Shown one piece after another: positions 38,494-48,489 of a stretch of DNA of 64,000 bases. The notes beneath the pieces were generated by a model that searched no databases, was not told the origin of the DNA, and saw only the letters and a list, made by a program, of their open reading frames with translations. Location of the stretch: IMG/VR virus record IMGVR_UViG_3300031857_000010, positions 1 to 64,000 of that record; one strand, given 5' to 3'. The translations under genes and the position numbers were made by a program. The stretch's first letter is position 1. Each line of letters starts with the position of its first letter. This DNA is from a virus.

Positions 38494-39456
38494 TTAATTA
38501 ATACAGGAAATAGATTTGTTTAAAATCGGTTTATACCATTTAAAAGTTTCTATTAAACCTTGTTCTAATTCATAGTCAGGCTCGAAGCCATATTTTTTTA
38601 TTTTTTCTATATCTGCATGAGTTTTTGAAACATCTCCTTCTCTTTTAGGTGCATTCAATACTATAGGATTAGTTCCAAGTAAATCAGACATAATTTCTTT
38701 TATTTGTATTAAATCATAAGTTTTGTCATTTGATACATTGAAAATATTTCCATTTAATTTATTATTATATTCACCCATAATAAAATTTGCTTTGCAAACA
38801 TCTTTAACAAATACAAAACTTCTTGACTGAGATCCATCACCATCTAATCTTATCTCTGAATTTGTTATGAAGCCTTTCATCCAAGCACATATCACATTTG
38901 CATAAGAATTTGTTGCATATTGATTCGGACCATACACATTAAAATATCGAAGACAAACACTATCTAGTTGATAAAGTTCAGACCATATTTTTAAATATTG
39001 TTCAATTATCAATTTTTGTACTGCATAAGGTGATTTAAAATTTATTGAAGTGGTTTCTGGAGTAGGTAAAAAAACTGTATCACCATATATAGCAGAAGTA
39101 GAGCTGAAAACAAATTTCTTAATTCTATTTTCAGAACAATTTTTTAATAATATTAAAGTTTTTGTAACATTATTATTATTAGTAATCAATGGATTTTCAA
39201 CTGAATAACCCACACTTGGCATAGCTGCAAAATGATAAACTATATCTATGTTTTTATTTGTAAAATCAAAATTTACAAAATCATCATTTATGAAAATGAA
39301 TTTTTCATTTACTAAATTTTCTATAAAACATTTATTCTCTTCCCCGTTTATAAAATTATCTATGCCATAAATAAAATATTCAGTGTTTTCAAGTAAAAAA
39401 TTTACCATGTTGGATCCTATAAAACCTCCTGCACCAGTGACTAAAACTCTTTTCAT
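38494..39456 (-). CDS. NAD-dependent sugar-nucleotide epimerase (GalE-like)
   Basis: This 320-residue extended SDR begins MKRVLVTGAGGFIGSNMVNF. It carries IVYHFAAMPSVGYS, FSSTSAIYGD near 119-128, and SPYAVQKLIIEQYL with the YxxxK pair near 148-152. The LRYFNVYGPNQYA element near 172-184 is typical of UDP-glucose 4-epimerase and UDP-glucuronate 4-epimerase relatives. It probably interconverts a UDP-hexose or -uronate; the exact substrate cannot be read. Its start overlaps the Fcl stop by 4 bases, and its stop is 62 bases from the metallophosphoesterase gene. Confidence 0.8.
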   Translation of the reverse strand: MKRVLVTGAGGFIGSNMVNFLLENTEYFIYGIDNFINGEENKCFIENLVNEKFIFINDDFVNFDFTNKNIDIVYHFAAMPSVGYSVENPLITNNNNVTKTLILLKNCSENRIKKFVFSSTSAIYGDTVFLPTPETTSINFKSPYAVQKLIIEQYLKIWSELYQLDSVCLRYFNVYGPNQYATNSYANVICAWMKGFITNSEIRLDGDGSQSRSFVFVKDVCKANFIMGEYNNKLNGNIFNVSNDKTYDLIQIKEIMSDLLGTNPIVLNAPKREGDVSKTHADIEKIKKYGFEPDYELEQGLIETFKWYKPILNKSISCIN

Positions 39457-40388
39457 TTTCTGATTTTATTTAAATTATTATAGAACCAATCTATTGTTTC
39501 CTTCAAACCATCCTCTATTCTGGTGAATTTATAATCTGGTAAATATTTTAATAACTTACTATTATCACTTGGTTTTCTGAGTTGACCATCTGGTTTTGAT
39601 TCATCCCAAATTATTTTATTTTTGAATCCCATTAAATCTGCTACCAATGTAGCTAGATCTTTTATTGAAATTTCTTGTGAAGTGGAGAGAATTATTGGTT
39701 CATTTTCTTCATAATTTTCTAAAACCCATAGCGATAAATCAGCTACATCTTTGGAGAATATAAATTCTCTTAGTGGTTTACCTGTTCCCCAAACTATCAA
39801 GTCTTTATTTTCTTTAATAGAATTATAGCATTTATAAATTAATGCTGGCAATACATGTGAATTCTCTAGATTAAAATTATCGTTTGGACCATAAATATTT
39901 GTAGGAATAACTGATTTATAATTTAATCCATATTGTTCTCTATAAGACCTAATTTGTATATCGGCCATTCTTTTAGCATAAGCATAAGGATAATTTGAAT
40001 CATGTGGTGGCCCTAAGTGTATTTTTTTTTCATTTAGAGGATATTCTATGTTATCTGGAAAAACACATGTAGATAAAAAACAAACTAAATTTTTTATGCC
40101 AAATTTTCTACTCGATTCTATAACATTTGTATTTATCATTATATTGTCATAGAAAAATTCTCCTTTTAAATTCATATTACTTCCTAATCCACCAACTTTT
40201 GCAGCACAATGTATAACTTTATCTACAGCAAATTCGTTTTGTATTTTTGAGTCAGTATAAAATTCAAATATTTGCTCTGTACTTTTTTTATCTCTCAAAT
40301 CACAAACCTTAGAAGATAATGCAATTAAATCTCCTTTAAATTGAGATCCAACTAAACCACTTTGACCAGTTACTAATAACCTTCCCAT
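39453..40388 (-). CDS. fcl: GDP-L-fucose synthase
   Basis: A 311-residue protein matching the Fcl/WcaG family: MGRLLVTGQSGLVGSQFKGD at the N-terminus, HCAAKVGGLGSNMN, FLSTCVFPDN near 107 (with the active-site Cys), YAYAKRMADIQIRSY with the YxxxK pair, and IPTNIYGPNDNF. It catalyses the NADPH-dependent 3,5-epimerisation and 4-reduction of GDP-4-keto-6-deoxy-mannose to GDP-L-fucose. The partner enzyme Gmd is encoded two genes upstream in the same operon. Bacterial Fcl is ~320 residues, so it is full length. Confidence 0.88.
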   Translation of the reverse strand: MGRLLVTGQSGLVGSQFKGDLIALSSKVCDLRDKKSTEQIFEFYTDSKIQNEFAVDKVIHCAAKVGGLGSNMNLKGEFFYDNIMINTNVIESSRKFGIKNLVCFLSTCVFPDNIEYPLNEKKIHLGPPHDSNYPYAYAKRMADIQIRSYREQYGLNYKSVIPTNIYGPNDNFNLENSHVLPALIYKCYNSIKENKDLIVWGTGKPLREFIFSKDVADLSLWVLENYEENEPIILSTSQEISIKDLATLVADLMGFKNKIIWDESKPDGQLRKPSDNSKLLKYLPDYKFTRIEDGLKETIDWFYNNLNKIRK

Positions 40389-41040: not shown

Positions 41041-42015
41041 TTAATTTTTATTTAACCAATACTCAATCATTTCATCAATCATACTATTAAAATTATATGA
41101 AGGGTTCCAATTTAATTCTTCTCTAATCTTAGTAGAATCCCCTCTTAAATAATTTAATTCTTCTGGTCTTTGATATTTTTCACTGGATTCAACATAAATT
41201 TCTTTTGATAAATTTAATTTATTAAAAACATAATCAACTAATTCTTGAACAGATCTACTTTCACCGGTTGCACAAACATAATCTTTTGCTTCATTGTTTT
41301 GTAGCATTAACCACATTGCTTGAACATAGTCTTTAGCATGTCCCCAATCTCTCTTTGCATTTAGATTTCCGAGTATTAATTTTTTAGACAATCCTTTATG
41401 AATCTTTACAGCTTCTGATACTACTTTATTTGTTACAAAATTTATACCTCTTCTTGGAGATTCGTGATTAAATAAAATCCCGGAGGTTATAAACATATTA
41501 TAAGAATTTCTATAGTTATTACATAAATTATGTGCAAATAATTTGCTACAACCATATGGACTAACTGGTTTCATTGGTGTAATTTCTCTTTGAAAAAAAT
41601 CTTGATCATAATTGTTGCCGAACATTTCAGAAGTTGCTGCGTGATAAATCTTTGAATCAGGTGAAAATTTTCTTACTGCTTCTAAAATAGATAGTGTACC
41701 ACCTGCATTAACGTCTAATGTATATTTTGGTAACTCAAAACTTATTTGAACATGTGATTGAGCTGCCAAATGATAAATCTCATCCGGTTTTAATTTATTT
41801 ACTATAGTTTCTATACTTATTGGATCTGTTAAGTCTGCGTAGTGTAACTGGATTAAATTATTTTTGTGTAAATGTTCAATTCTTGTTGTTTGTGATTCTG
41901 GCACTGAATTTCTTCTTATGGTTCCGTGAACACTGTAATCTTTTTCAATTAAAAATTCAGATAAATAACTTGCATCTTGACCATTTGCACCAATTATCAA
42001 AGCCGTTTTTTTCAT
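41041..42015 (-). CDS. gmd: GDP-mannose 4,6-dehydratase
   Basis: A 324-residue protein with a clear Gmd layout: MKKTALIIGANGQDASYLSE, HGTIRRNSVPESQTTRIEHL, IYHLAAQSHVQISFE, HAATSEMFGN near 126 (Thr-Ser-Glu of the active site), MKPVSPYGCSKLFAHNLC (YxxxK), and FNHESPRRGINFVTNKVV. It makes GDP-4-keto-6-deoxy-D-mannose, the substrate for Fcl. It sits in an operon with the GDP-mannose 3,5-epimerase (8 bases upstream), a FkbM methyltransferase and Fcl. No GDP-mannose pyrophosphorylase is visible, so host GDP-mannose must be used. Confidence 0.9.
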   Translation of the reverse strand: MKKTALIIGANGQDASYLSEFLIEKDYSVHGTIRRNSVPESQTTRIEHLHKNNLIQLHYADLTDPISIETIVNKLKPDEIYHLAAQSHVQISFELPKYTLDVNAGGTLSILEAVRKFSPDSKIYHAATSEMFGNNYDQDFFQREITPMKPVSPYGCSKLFAHNLCNNYRNSYNMFITSGILFNHESPRRGINFVTNKVVSEAVKIHKGLSKKLILGNLNAKRDWGHAKDYVQAMWLMLQNNEAKDYVCATGESRSVQELVDYVFNKLNLSKEIYVESSEKYQRPEELNYLRGDSTKIREELNWNPSYNFNSMIDEMIEYWLNKN

Positions 42016-43221: not shown

Positions 43222-43977
43222 TCAGTTTATTTTACAAACTGGTATTGGTATCATTTTATGTAAATTCTTAGAATTTAAAAAATTATATATATTAATTATC
43301 TCCAATTGTCTTTCTGAATATTTTAATGGATCAATTGTATTGCTTTTACTTAATAATTCCATAGCCCACTCTAATTCTTCGTATGAAGCACCAATTTGTT
43401 GTTCATCTGTTCTGTCATCTGACCATAATCCATCTGTAGGAGCAGCTTCAATGATTTCTGAAATTATACCTAAATTTGATGCCATTTTTCTTACTTCAGT
43501 TTTAGTCAAATCTGCTATTGGGGAAATATCAACTCCACCATCACCATATTTTGTAAAGAATCCAATTCCAAAATCTTCTATTTTGTTGCCAGTTCCAACC
43601 ACAATTCCATTAACACTTGTTGCTATTTGATAAAGAGTAATCATTCTTAACCTTGAACGAGTGTTTGCAAAAGCTAGATTGTTATTATATTCATTTGCAA
43701 ATTTTTTTAAAAAAACATCATATATGTTAGTCAAATCATATTCTTTTTCAACAACATTGTTGTATTTATTTTTTAACCAATTAATATGCTTTCTTGCTCT
43801 TGTCAATTCAAGTTCATTTTGATAAATTGGCATTGAAACTAATATGGTTTCAATTTCAGTCATAGCACAAAGAGTTGAAACTAAAGCGGAGTCTATACCC
43901 CCAGAAACACCAACAACTAACTTAAATTTTTTTTCACTACAATAATTCTTAATCCAATCTACTATTTTTCTCTTCAT
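43222..43977 (-). CDS. nadE: NH3-dependent NAD+ synthetase
   Basis: A 251-residue protein with the P-loop KLVVGVSGGIDSALVSTLCA near 19-38, NTRSRLRMITLYQIA near 104-118, VVGTGNKIEDFGIGFFTKYG, GDGGVDISPIADLTKTEV, and EAAPTDGLWSDDRTDEQQIG. These are all diagnostic of NadE, which amidates deamido-NAD with ammonia. It lacks the glutaminase domain. Its start overlaps the upstream gene stop by 4 bases. Within a cluster full of NAD(P)-dependent sugar dehydrogenases it may boost the cofactor pool during infection. Confidence 0.9.
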   Translation of the reverse strand: MKRKIVDWIKNYCSEKKFKLVVGVSGGIDSALVSTLCAMTEIETILVSMPIYQNELELTRARKHINWLKNKYNNVVEKEYDLTNIYDVFLKKFANEYNNNLAFANTRSRLRMITLYQIATSVNGIVVGTGNKIEDFGIGFFTKYGDGGVDISPIADLTKTEVRKMASNLGIISEIIEAAPTDGLWSDDRTDEQQIGASYEELEWAMELLSKSNTIDPLKYSERQLEIINIYNFLNSKNLHKMIPIPVCKIN

Positions 43978-45092
43978 GTGTGTAAAAATTTGTCTATGAA
44001 TACATTTATTTTTTCGAAATTATCTGAATTGAAATTATATGATATTGATTTTTTATTTTTTAATTCACAAACTTTTGAAACAAAAGTATTTTTATTTTGT
44101 TTGTCATCGAGTAAAACTAAATTTGTATTACAATAATATGATGCTAGATCGATTGGTGAAGTTGATGGGCTTATAAAAATTTCAGAATTATGAACCACAC
44201 TCAAAAATTTTTTTACATCGAAAAAATTTCTCATATCATATTCTATGATATAATCGTTTTCTGGAATTGGATATTTTACTAAATCGTTTATAATCACTAA
44301 AAATTTCTTTTCTGAAATAAATTTGTTCACAAGTTTATTATAGAAATCTAAATCTACAAAACCAAAACCCGGATTTCCTTTTGTTCCATCTCCAACTAAA
44401 ATTTCATTTATATTGGATGATCTAAAATTTCTACTTTTCCAAGTATTTTTTACAAATAAAGTACAATATTTCTTATCTAATTTTAAAACATCTTCAAATT
44501 CGTAATTATTTTTCCACAAATCTAAATTCCAACCTAAAGTTCCACTAGTTTTCCAAGCAGTATTTTCCGATGTATAATAATCTCTTTCCCCCGAAGCATA
44601 TTTATATGATTGTAGACTAAATAAGTTGTATTTCCAAGGCAAATCTCTTCCTATAGCATGAATTTTATTCTTAAATTTATATTTTGATAGAATTAAATCA
44701 TAATCATCCTCATTAAAATTTCTTATCGTATACCAAAAAGCAATACCTCTATCTCCTTGGTTCTGAAAATTATTAATTAATAAATCGGTTTCTTTATTAT
44801 TTTTATAAGCTTTATTTGTATCAATAAAACCTTCTAATATAATCAATTCATCTACCCAAGGTTCATAAAAAATTTCTTGACCCTCAAAACAAATTCCAAC
44901 TGTTGGCCCATTGATATTTTTGAAAAAATCTAAAAACAATTCATTGAAAAAAATAGGATAAAAACCATATTCACACCAAAAATAATTTATCAAATTATAT
45001 TGTTCCGTATTTCCAATTGAACTTAAATAAAGATCTAAATCTTTTAAATTGTTTATTTTTACTTTTTTAATTTTTTGCATTATTGATTTCAA
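43974..45092 (-). CDS. Putative GT-B-like glycosyltransferase-associated protein
   Basis: This 372-residue protein opens MKSIMQKIKKVKINNLKDLD. The C-terminal part reads like a GT-B nucleotide-binding half: LVIINDLVKYPIPENDYIIE, FLSVVHNSEIFISPSTSPID near 295-315 and NLVLLDDKQNKN. The ISPSTSPIDLASY element resembles the donor-binding loop of GT9 or ADP-heptose-type enzymes. The N-terminal half, with PTVGICFEGQEIFYEPWVDE, is unassigned. It overlaps the FkbM gene by 26 bases and NadE by 4, so all three are coupled. Glycosyltransferase call is tentative. Confidence 0.5.
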   Translation of the reverse strand: MKSIMQKIKKVKINNLKDLDLYLSSIGNTEQYNLINYFWCEYGFYPIFFNELFLDFFKNINGPTVGICFEGQEIFYEPWVDELIILEGFIDTNKAYKNNKETDLLINNFQNQGDRGIAFWYTIRNFNEDDYDLILSKYKFKNKIHAIGRDLPWKYNLFSLQSYKYASGERDYYTSENTAWKTSGTLGWNLDLWKNNYEFEDVLKLDKKYCTLFVKNTWKSRNFRSSNINEILVGDGTKGNPGFGFVDLDFYNKLVNKFISEKKFLVIINDLVKYPIPENDYIIEYDMRNFFDVKKFLSVVHNSEIFISPSTSPIDLASYYCNTNLVLLDDKQNKNTFVSKVCELKNKKSISYNFNSDNFEKINVFIDKFLHT

Positions 45093-45798
45093 TTATATCT
45101 TCTATATCATTTATTTCTAACATTTCTCTACTATCATTAGATGCCCATTTCATAAACCAAGGATATTGATTTGTTGAAACTATGGGTAAATTATTAAATT
45201 CTTTTGAAATAAAAAACATATTTACTCCATTTATTCCTACTAAATCATAGTTCTTAAATTTACCTAAAAGTTCTAGTGCTGGAGGAGTAGCACCGTAATA
45301 AATAGTATTGTGATGAACATAATTTTTATCATATGGCATGATGCAACTTTTTTGAATATTGCTATTATATTCGATTACTACAATTTTAGGTCTATATTTA
45401 TTTAAGCTATTCCATATCCACCAATCATTACCGTCTATGTCAATAGAGATTAAATCAAAATTTATAGGACAGTTATTTTGTTCTAAAAGATAATCTATAC
45501 AATTATCTTCTTCAATTGATATAAAAGAATTTAGACATTTAACATTAAATGATGACATATTATTTGTTAATTGATCAAATTTATTTTTATCAGCTTCTAT
45601 ACAGATACCTGAAAAATTTTTATCTTTAATTAAATGATAAACGTTACTTAAATAAATTCCATCCCAACTTCCTACATCTACGAAGTATCCATTTTCATTT
45701 ATATTTAAGGACTCGAGACATTCTTTAATCATTCCGTCTTCTCCATATTGAGAATAATAATTTTCTTGGTACTTATTTAAACCGTAATTTTTTGACAT
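45067..45798 (-). CDS. FkbM-like methyltransferase
   Basis: This 243-residue protein has a class I methyltransferase core: QYGEDGMIKECLESL, YFVDVGSWDGIYLSNVYHLI near 37-57, SGICIEADKNKFDQL near 70, and FDLISIDIDGNDWWIWNSLN near 125-145. The DIDGND motif replaces DxEGxE in the FkbM signature, which is common in a subgroup of polysaccharide-locus methyltransferases. It is encoded between two probable sugar genes with tight overlap. Substrate unknown. Confidence 0.72.
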   Translation of the reverse strand: MSKNYGLNKYQENYYSQYGEDGMIKECLESLNINENGYFVDVGSWDGIYLSNVYHLIKDKNFSGICIEADKNKFDQLTNNMSSFNVKCLNSFISIEEDNCIDYLLEQNNCPINFDLISIDIDGNDWWIWNSLNKYRPKIVVIEYNSNIQKSCIMPYDKNYVHHNTIYYGATPPALELLGKFKNYDLVGINGVNMFFISKEFNNLPIVSTNQYPWFMKWASNDSREMLEINDIEDIIEINNAKN

Positions 45799-45807
45799 AA
45801 TTTTAAT

Positions 45808-46479
45808 TTATAGAATTGAATAATTAATATTGTTTTCTTTTTTAATCAAGTAATCTTCCTTTATATCTAATTCTTCAAAAGAGTTTTTTGGTAAAACATA
45901 AATTTTTCCAACACCACCTATACTACCATCCCTAATTGGTAATTTTCTGTTAGTGGAATTAAGATAATAATATAGATATCCATTATCATCATAACAAGTA
46001 TTTAATTCTTTTTCAATAAAAGAAAAATCACATTTTACGTTATGATATGAATCATATTGAAAATTTCTATTAGGTACGAAAAAATCATCAATTACTATAA
46101 TTGCTCTGTTTTTGAAAGATTTAGATATTGCAATTAATTCGTCTTGTAATGGCCAATAATTTTCCCAGTGTGCATCCAAATAAAACATCACAAAATTATA
46201 GTCATTTTCAATTTTTGGTAAAATTTCAGAAAGAAATTTTTCTGAGGAATCTTTGTATATTTCAACATTTTTTAAATGATTACATTTTTGATTTGACAAT
46301 TGGAAAAAATGATCTGTAATTTCTACACTTAAAACTTTTTCAAAATTTTCGCCTAAAAATTTTGTTGTATTACCCTCATATGAACCTGTTTCTATTACAC
46401 ATTTTATGTCAAATAGATTCTTTAATTTTAATATTTCCTCACAAACTTTTGTGTCTGAGTTGAAAGCTGTTGTTTCCAT
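45808..46479 (-). CDS. Class I methyltransferase-like protein
   Basis: This 223-residue protein has a SAM-binding element CVIETGSYEGNTTKFLGENF near 22-40, VLSVEITDHFFQLSN, and NFVMFYLDAHWENYWPLQDE near 100-119 followed by IIVIDDFFVPNR. LDAHW with a later IDDF fits small O-methyltransferases of polysaccharide loci. I chose the start at 46479 (METTAFNSDT) because it leaves a 19-base A/T spacer after the upstream stop; a start at 46527 would overlap that gene by 29 bases. Confidence 0.68.
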   Translation of the reverse strand: METTAFNSDTKVCEEILKLKNLFDIKCVIETGSYEGNTTKFLGENFEKVLSVEITDHFFQLSNQKCNHLKNVEIYKDSSEKFLSEILPKIENDYNFVMFYLDAHWENYWPLQDELIAISKSFKNRAIIVIDDFFVPNRNFQYDSYHNVKCDFSFIEKELNTCYDDNGYLYYYLNSTNRKLPIRDGSIGGVGKIYVLPKNSFEELDIKEDYLIKKENNINYSIL

Positions 46480-46498
46480 ATTTATTATTTTAATTTGT

Positions 46499-47596
46499 TT
46501 AATTAGATGTATATTCGAATAAATCACCGTAAATTTTTTTGACTTGAGTTATTACTTCTATTTTATCTTTTATTACTATTTTTAAACCTTTTTTTGCCAA
46601 TTCTACAGCGAATTTTAGTTGTTGAGATTCTTCGATTATAATAGAATCTTTTTTATAACTAACACCATCAATTTCTATAGTTTGTTTTTCATTTTTTCTA
46701 ATAAAATCTTCTATTTGATAATTTAAATGAATGTTGTTATATTGATCTGATGCTTTTGGTATTAAAGGATCAATGTTTATTTCTTCAGCAAAAATTCCCA
46801 ATGCTCTATTATCTCTTGGAAAACAAGGGCCACCAAACCCATAACCCCATTTCAGATATTTATTATTTATTCTCGAATCACAACCGATAGCATTGAGAAC
46901 ATTAAAATGAGAAATTTCTAATTTGTTACAAATATCGCCTATCATATTGGCAAAAGATATTTTTGTAGTTACAAAACAATTAATTGAAATTTTCGTTATT
47001 TCAGCTTCTGTTCTTGACATTTTACAAAAAACAGGTTGATTTTCTACTAAATTTTTATATACATTTTCAATCAGATTTCCAGATATTTCATCTGCTTGTC
47101 CTATTAAAACCATGTCTGGATATAATTGGTCCTTTATAATGCTACCCTGTGCTATGAATTCAGGATTATAAGATATTTTGTAATTATAAGAATCTAATTC
47201 TTCTTGGATTTTATCACAATAAGTTGGCATAGTAGTGCAACAAATTACTAAATCTTTTCTTTTTTGTTGTTTTCCTATTTTTTTTAATTTACTCACTAAA
47301 ATATCTATTTGTTCGTGATTGTATTTTCCGTTAGGAAGAGAGGGTGTTGCAACTACTACAAATATTATATCATTTTCTAATGCTAACTCTAGATTGTTAG
47401 ATGCATATAAATTTTCACATCTACTTAATAATAATTCAACATCTTTTTCAAGAGATTTCAATGTTTTATAATTTATAGAATTTATATAATTTTCATCAAT
47501 GTCAATTCCTGTAATTTGAAAACCTTTTTTTTCTAGATTAAGAGCAAAACACAAGCCTAATTTTCCTAATCCTATAACACTTATTTTTTTATTCAT
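46499..47596 (-). CDS. UDP-glucose/GDP-mannose dehydrogenase family protein
   Basis: This 365-residue protein has the family layout: ISVIGLGKLGLCFALNLEKK, TGIDIDENYIN, FVVVATPSLPNGKYNHEQID near 80-99, EFIAQGSIIKDQLYPD, and the catalytic-cysteine motif YGFGGPCFPRDNRAL near 255-269. These enzymes oxidise UDP-glucose, UDP-ManNAc or GDP-mannose to uronic acids with two NAD+. It is shorter at the C-terminus than typical members (about 400-440), so the last domain is reduced. With NadE close by, this may be the main NAD+ consumer of the cluster. Exact substrate unknown. Confidence 0.8.
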   Translation of the reverse strand: MNKKISVIGLGKLGLCFALNLEKKGFQITGIDIDENYINSINYKTLKSLEKDVELLLSRCENLYASNNLELALENDIIFVVVATPSLPNGKYNHEQIDILVSKLKKIGKQQKRKDLVICCTTMPTYCDKIQEELDSYNYKISYNPEFIAQGSIIKDQLYPDMVLIGQADEISGNLIENVYKNLVENQPVFCKMSRTEAEITKISINCFVTTKISFANMIGDICNKLEISHFNVLNAIGCDSRINNKYLKWGYGFGGPCFPRDNRALGIFAEEINIDPLIPKASDQYNNIHLNYQIEDFIRKNEKQTIEIDGVSYKKDSIIIEESQQLKFAVELAKKGLKIVIKDKIEVITQVKKIYGDLFEYTSN

Positions 47597-47625: not shown

Positions 47626-48489
47626 TTACATTCCATGTAAATTTTCAAGACTTGGAAAGAAATTGTATTTAATTTTATTATTAATAATTAATATTCCAAA
47701 AACCATATTACTTGTTGACATAATTAATTCATCACACATTGTCAAATTATATACATCAGTAAAACAATTTACAATTTCTTCGTTGTAACAAAAATTCGGT
47801 TTATCTCTCCAGTCCATGTTACCTACCCCTCTTTGGTAATCATGATATATGATTTTATGTTTTGGTATATATAGTTCTATTTTTTCTATAAATTCTGAAA
47901 TATCACATGCAATATATATCTCGTCAAAATTATTATTTTCGAAGTAATCTCTTACGAATTTTGCATTCTCAGAATAAAAATTGGAATTTTCAACTCTTAG
48001 TTGAGGACCATTATGTTTTCCTATACAATAATGTTGTGGAGATCTTAGATGTACACCTAATATTTTTTTATTTGAATTATCAATTATTTTTTTTGAAGAA
48101 TCAATAAATGATTTTTTAAATTTCAAGTTTTTATTAAAAACTAAATTCCATTCATTTCTTAATATTTCAAAATCTTTTTCTCTATAAATTTCTGGTGTGG
48201 TATAAAAATAGCCATTATATTTATTGTAGAAGGGAATTTTATCTATAAAATTTTGATATTTTTCATTTAATCTATAATTTGAGTAATTAACCCAATTATT
48301 GGTATTTAAATTTATTTTTTCGTTGATGACAGGATTTGAATAATCAAAAACTAAATTAAGTAGGTCTATGTTATTAAAGTGCCAGTCAATAAAAACTTTT
48401 TCTCCAGTGTATTCTTGATAGCAATACCAATCTATAATTCTTAAAAAATTCGAGAAAATACCATTTTCATCTTTTTTTAAAACTATCAT
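47626..48489 (-). CDS. Putative fucosyltransferase-like (GT11/GT23-fold) protein
   Basis: A 287-residue protein. The segment KILGVHLRSPQHYCIG near 142-157 carries the HxR element that binds GDP-fucose in alpha-1,2, alpha-1,6 and O-fucosyltransferases. It is followed by FDEIYIACDISEFIEKIE and then MCDELIMSTSNMVFGI near 255-270, matching the usual ACD ... CDExxxSTSN pattern of this fold. Overall identity cannot be judged without a search. The GDP-fucose enzymes in the same operon make a fucosyl donor plausible. It is separated by 29 bases from the UDP-sugar dehydrogenase. Confidence 0.5.
   Translation of the reverse strand: MIVLKKDENGIFSNFLRIIDWYCYQEYTGEKVFIDWHFNNIDLLNLVFDYSNPVINEKINLNTNNWVNYSNYRLNEKYQNFIDKIPFYNKYNGYFYTTPEIYREKDFEILRNEWNLVFNKNLKFKKSFIDSSKKIIDNSNKKILGVHLRSPQHYCIGKHNGPQLRVENSNFYSENAKFVRDYFENNNFDEIYIACDISEFIEKIELYIPKHKIIYHDYQRGVGNMDWRDKPNFCYNEEIVNCFTDVYNLTMCDELIMSTSNMVFGILIINNKIKYNFFPSLENLHGM

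Follow-up and report, generated by a model that had tools for sequence, protein, structure and literature searches.

Bacterial NH3-dependent NAD+ synthetases (NadE; TIGR00552), are single-domain ATP-pyrophosphatases, the housekeeping copy of Flavobacteriales usually being encoded beside gldB and gldC, and phage homologues are already annotated with a PHROG of their own (phrog_11189: S-SSM7_258, P-TIM68 gp179, HTVC008M gp161 and Bellamy 225). Phages also encode other enzymes ending in NAD+, namely those of NAD+ reconstitution (NARP1 Adps-Namat, NAMPT and NMNAT types). We analysed a window of 64,000 bases (bases 1-64000 of the 216,699-base IMG/VR record IMGVR_UViG_3300031857_000010, here G000, from a phage described as giant and marine-type), which carries a nadE gene in a glycan operon beside a nucleotide-sugar 6-dehydrogenase (UGDH). 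The window NadE has all the catalytic and nicotinic acid adenine dinucleotide (NaAD) residues of the bacterial enzyme and is 49-54% identical to the annotated phage proteins, whose genes likewise have a UGDH adjacent or one gene away, although the class of the partner dehydrogenase and the gene order differ from those of the window. The NARP-type pathways differ in enzymes and substrates, and their partner families (NAMPT/NAPRTase and NMNAT) are absent from G000. The pairing of NadE with UGDH, or its repeated re-assembly, was found in no paper of the literature searched, which took in few subscription papers.

The window NadE scored well above the cut-offs of TIGR00552 (175 bits; cut-off 63.65) and PF02540 (171 bits; cut-off 21) and matched PHROG 11189, 'NAD synthetase', with 269 bits, while its score with the narrower equivalog PRK13980 (175) was under that model's own cut-off of 255. 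The single-domain open reading frame (ORF) of 251 residues does not have a fused glutaminase (nitrilase) domain. A CN-hydrolase annotated next to NadE in phage Sf-FS3, considered as an ammonia donor, was rejected for want of Pfam support. The AlphaFold2 model, made with an alignment of relatives as input (pLDDT 87.9, pTM 0.88), matched solved NadE and nicotinamide mononucleotide (NMN) synthetase folds over its full length, the best matches being the Francisella NMN synthetase 3FIU and the NH3-dependent NadE of Pyrococcus, Helicobacter and Bacillus. In the alignment to E. coli NadE, the ATP, Mg and deamido-NAD positions checked were all conserved, with Y33, the P-loop G46-S53 (SGGxDS), R140, T160, E165, F170, K173, D180, K189, T211 and H260-K261 (E. 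coli numbering) kept; the roles of these residues are presumably those annotated for the E. coli enzyme. Among 86 de-duplicated UGDH-paired phage NadEs, 85 were readable at the checked positions, and in all 85 the 19 substrate and ATP positions were unchanged, as in the housekeeping enzymes. At 39 family-invariant positions, departures were found in 4 of 741 cells in the UGDH-paired phages versus 6 of 3081 in Bacteroidota. The unchanged substrate positions argue for retained NaAD chemistry, and, judged from its sequence, the protein is a genuine NH3-dependent NAD synthetase, apparently intact and presumably active.

The genes from 47596 to 43222 share one strand, each overlapping the next or standing no more than 9 bases from it, and belong to an all-minus-strand block (approximately 33.4-57.0 kb) that is rich in glycosyltransferase-, methyltransferase- and sugar-nucleotide-type genes (Table 1). 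The UGDH scored 221 bits with TIGR03026 (cut-off 190), its catalytic C258, K202 and N206 were invariant in the UGDH alignment, and PF00984 occurs once in the whole G000 genome. Family scores, fold match and residues thus bear out the sequence-only reading in describing NadE as full length with all motifs, and the strand, the spacing and the UGDH score bear it out in placing NadE in one operon with a UDP-sugar dehydrogenase. Its further statement that the operon holds several NAD-dependent short-chain dehydrogenase/reductase (SDR) enzymes stood in part: SDR genes are present downstream, but among the identified operon enzymes only UGDH turns over NAD+ stoichiometrically, since the epimerases recycle a bound cofactor and GDP-mannose 4,6-dehydratase (GMD) and fucose synthase work with NADP(H).

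The pairing recurs in many phages. UGDH is the next gene after NadE in the isolates S-SSM7, P-TIM68, S-SCSM2R, Sf-FS3 and HTVC008M, and the second gene after it in Bellamy. In 21 phage loci UGDH was the commonest neighbour (18 full copies and a partial one in L028, hence 19/21; the next family reached 13), and 20 of the 23 phage records tested carried UGDH. A scan of IMG/VR gave at least 556 NadE-encoding stretches, of which we analysed the best 80; these are the nearest to the window protein, and the fractions from them describe the window clade, not all phage NadEs. A UGDH was found within 8 kb of NadE in 59 of the 80 loci and was immediately adjacent in 41; with near-copies removed and 4 kb required on both sides, it was present in 21 of 29. 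All 67 de-duplicated NadE-UGDH pairs were co-directional, and 46 of them were adjacent versus about 9 expected under random placement of UGDH in the same operon. Both gene orders occur.

The partner dehydrogenases belong to different classes, which carry the active-site signatures GFGFGGPCFPRDNR and GDGGxCHPRDNI, with a third class in L024. These classes are about 25% identical to each other, and their NadEs are 44-74% identical; for example, L009 and L010 have NadEs of 74% identity and, at the same position, UGDHs of 25% identity. Parsimony on the NadE tree gave at least 12 switches of partner class, and the well-supported branches alone force 4-5. Switching of the partner class with adjacency kept led us to reject hitchhiking as the full explanation of the pairing, and the repeated independent re-pairing of NadE with different dehydrogenases, as read from these alignments and trees, indicates functional coupling.

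A fused form of NadE was also observed. In L022 (9011-10747; also in L020 and L021), a 578-aa ORF has NadE as its C-terminal half; its N-terminal region of about 320 residues resembles a neighbouring glycosyltransferase-like protein, and UGDH directly follows. The three contigs are near-identical, and the fusion was counted as one event.

The closest cellular relatives of the phage gene are the housekeeping nadE genes of Bacteroidota, and the window NadE is 56-59% identical to the nearest marine Flavobacteriales copies. In about two-thirds of 75 readable Bacteroidota loci, a gene which we take, by name only, to be of gldB type (a lipoprotein gene) lies two genes from nadE, usually with an adjoining gene presumably of gldC type. 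On the NadE tree, 21 of 22 phage NadEs clustered with four marine Flavobacteriales genes from metagenome-assembled genomes (MAGs) or single cells (L030, L031, L032 and L034, with housekeeping neighbours) and one Chloroflexi MAG gene (L106), with support of 100/99. The NadE of L027, which adjoins a nicotinate phosphoribosyltransferase (NAPRTase) gene, fell outside the main phage clade. Beyond the HK motif, the C-terminal tail carries a Cys that is near-invariant in Bacteroidota; most phage copies have lost it, but the window NadE keeps it. A bacterial origin of the pair itself was rejected, as none of 80 Bacteroidota loci had a co-directional pair; bacterial locus L064 has a UGDH-like gene of 28% identity on the strand opposite to nadE. 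As part of the reading we favour, we suggest that marine Flavobacteriales, with their housekeeping nadE, were the source of the phage gene.

That reading, to which we give a probability of about one half, is that NadE is a genuine NAD+ synthetase of Flavobacteriales origin that many phages have retained as a functional partner to UGDH, sustaining NAD+ for the synthesis of uronic-acid sugars. In the infected cell, phage NadE would turn host deamido-NAD into NAD+ (NaAD + ATP + NH3 -> NAD+), so that the NAD+ pool would grow or be maintained; UGDH would oxidise UDP-sugars to uronic-acid sugars at the cost of two NAD+ per sugar, and these sugars would feed a phage-directed glycan, probably on the cell surface or the virion. 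NAD+ would have to be limiting for the dehydrogenase. In related marine phages, alteration of the host O-chain has been proposed as a role of glycosyltransferase genes (PMC7029224).

Several points weigh against this reading. NADH is re-oxidised and NAD+ is recycled, so that the dehydrogenase creates no net NAD+ demand; NadE catalyses the last step and relies on host NaAD, with no upstream gene of the searched families in G000; and the fusion to a glycosyltransferase-like domain is not predicted by NAD supply. Furthermore, 25 of 80 class-A UGDH loci lacked NadE in their flanks; of 20 phage records selected because they have a class-A UGDH with no NadE nearby, about 18 carried no NadE anywhere; and NadE was found in just 5 of 80 class-B UGDH loci, indicating that the dehydrogenase does not strictly need NadE. 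In six other loci (L326, L348, L310, L314 and relatives) NadE occurs without UGDH, directly after GroEL/GroES/Hsp20-type genes (Cpn60 was confirmed next to NadE in L326), and neither gene thus strictly requires the other. The need could arise if small marine cells have limited NAD pools, or if abundant phage enzymes bind NAD tightly, but these are guesses. The link to sugar oxidation suggested in the sequence-only reading is supported by the repeated independent pairing, more strongly than the window alone could show; the supply of NAD+ fits the intact active site, with a gap left by the recycling of NADH and by the many phages with a related UGDH and no NadE in the record. As for the class-B loci without NadE, 23 of 73 had a neighbour that looked amidinotransferase-like by eye, mostly two genes downstream (e.g. 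L247:9723-10634).

Some phage NadEs adjoin NAPRTase, a true NAD-salvage arrangement seen in a minority of phages (L347:6786-7961 with NadE; L027:4921-6084 with NadE nearby). In L347 a class-A UGDH is present as well, at a distance of about 60 kb. That members of the same family have a NAPRTase partner speaks for a genuine NAD synthetase, and it also bears on a tentative but possible alternative, that NadE enlarges the NAD pool of the host to the benefit of phage metabolism in general, with the glycan island collecting accessory genes and the adjacency to UGDH being mostly inherited linkage. NadEs of the same family with an identical active site adjoin GroEL/GroES or NAPRTase in other phages, and NadEs with and without a UGDH partner are intermixed in the tree, both consistent with such a general role. 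Inherited linkage is, however, difficult to reconcile with the replacement of the partner, at least 12 times, by a dehydrogenase of only about 25% identity, with adjacency kept and in both gene orders, or with UGDH being by far the commonest neighbour.

It is unlikely, though it would account for the adjacency better than NAD supply does because the step is stoichiometric, that NadE has been repurposed as a uronate-amide synthetase, amidating the nucleotide-sugar uronate that the neighbouring dehydrogenase produces (e.g. UDP-glucuronic acid to UDP-glucuronamide) by a route unrelated to AsnB-type WbpS. The chemistry is the same (a carboxylate is adenylated and NH3 is added), the repeated partners are carboxylate-forming dehydrogenases, the fusion in L020-L022 is compatible with it, and uronamide sugars are known in bacterial glycans, where they are made by AsnB-type WbpS (PMC7468200). 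The uronamide amidotransferases WbpS and WbqG would share a chemical step with NadE only if NadE amidates uronates; their overall architecture is unrelated, and none was found in the UGDH phages tested, with an AsnB-type amidotransferase in the place of NadE in 0 of 20 UGDH phages without NadE. The geometry of UDP-glucuronic acid should demand a remodelled pocket, but an altered NaAD pocket was looked for and not found: the deamido-NAD and ATP residues are identical to those of the housekeeping and NAPRTase-paired phage NadEs (except that L027 differs at Y33), and the UGDH-paired NadEs form no set-apart subclade.

The sequence-only reading had also raised the replacement of NAD+ consumed by host defences that deplete it; for defences of the Thoeris, DSR, SIR2 or TIR type, our searches make this quite improbable. 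The deamidated route ends with NadE, and NAD+ reconstitution is a known phage strategy, exemplified by NARP1, the Namat partner of which is NAMPT-like (PMC12774641). NADases, however, yield nicotinamide and ADP-ribose, from which the NadE route needs nicotinamidase, NAPRTase and an NMN adenylyltransferase (NMNAT). Profile searches of G000 found no NAPRTase/NAMPT (PF04095, the family to which a Namat-like partner would belong), NMNAT-superfamily (PF01467) or nicotinamidase gene, and the same searches were positive in control genomes. The searches covered G000 and 22 further phage records; NAPRTase was present in 2 of these 23 first records, and in further NadE phages. NMNAT-superfamily matches in some cyanophages resembled short nucleotidyltransferases and were not counted as NAD genes. 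NadE on its own is unable to regenerate NAD+ from the NADase products, and the genomic linkage is to UGDH, not to NAD-salvage or anti-defence genes; counter-defence is thus without genomic support here and would be possible only with the host supplying the upstream steps. Finally, an NMN synthetase, amidating nicotinic acid mononucleotide to NMN as the Francisella enzyme does, is very improbable, for although 3FIU heads both the sequence and the fold matches, the H. pylori NadE fold matches equally well (TM 0.83), ordinary NadE is just as short, and an NMN adenylyltransferase-family gene is absent from G000.

Table 1. Genes of the window in and around the NadE-UGDH operon
Feature	Coordinates	Strand	Basis and remarks
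NadE, single-domain NH3-dependent NAD(+) synthetase	43222..43977	(-)	251 aa, ATG start and stop; TIGR00552/PF02540/phrog_11189
Nucleotide-sugar 6-dehydrogenase, UGDH class A, 365 aa	46499..47596	(-)	TIGR03026; catalytic GFGGPCFPRD Cys present
372-aa protein, no family match	43974..45092	(-)	ORF; end overlaps NadE start by 4 bases
FkbM-like methyltransferase (weak)	45067..45798	(-)	PF05050 E=5e-4, under family cut-off
SAM-dependent methyltransferase-like protein	45808..46527	(-)	Weak rRNA-dimethylase-type matches
GDP-mannose 3,5-epimerase-like SDR, 377 aa	42024..43157	(-)	Directly downstream of NadE; SDR matches, phrog_540 nucleotide-sugar epimerase; 3,5-epimerase by eye
GDP-mannose 4,6-dehydratase (GMD)	41041..42015	(-)	TIGR01472 384 bits, cut-off 415
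GDP-L-fucose synthase-like SDR	39453..40388	(-)	NF047922 248 bits, cut-off 500
UDP-hexose or UDP-uronate 4-epimerase-like SDR (GalE/TviC type)	38494..39456	(-)	TIGR01179 170 bits, TviC 163 bits, both under cut-off

Among the other operon genes, homologues of the S-adenosylmethionine (SAM)-dependent methyltransferase-like protein occur near NadE in 5 of the 21 phage loci. The 372-aa protein had no match in NCBIfam, Pfam, PHROG or PADLOC, and a 287-aa operon protein (47626-48489) had none in NCBIfam, Pfam or PHROGs.

A cyanophage protein of 145 residues that commonly bears the annotation 'NAD synthetase' was found to be a SegE-type GIY-YIG endonuclease (PF19835, 185-190 bits) with no NAD_synthase match. 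It is encoded at L007:1987-2424 (S-SSM7_239) and L004:6623-7057 (P-TIM68 gp170), with homologues in P-SSM2, P-SSM4, P-RSM4 and ACG-2014d. NAD synthetase has been counted in 24 of 153 cyanophages (PMC10452541; see also PMC7238727), and these published counts may rest on the SegE-type protein. True phage NadE can now be separated from this common misannotation, a possible cause of inflated inventories of metabolic genes in phages.

Counter-defence is now the usual interpretation of NAD genes in phages; in the present case an NAD synthetase is tied, through many changes of partner, to nucleotide-sugar oxidation in most of the phage contigs examined. The pairing suggests that phages in small marine hosts are limited in glycan synthesis by the supply of cofactor or, alternatively, that the NadE fold plays a hidden part in the chemistry of sugars.

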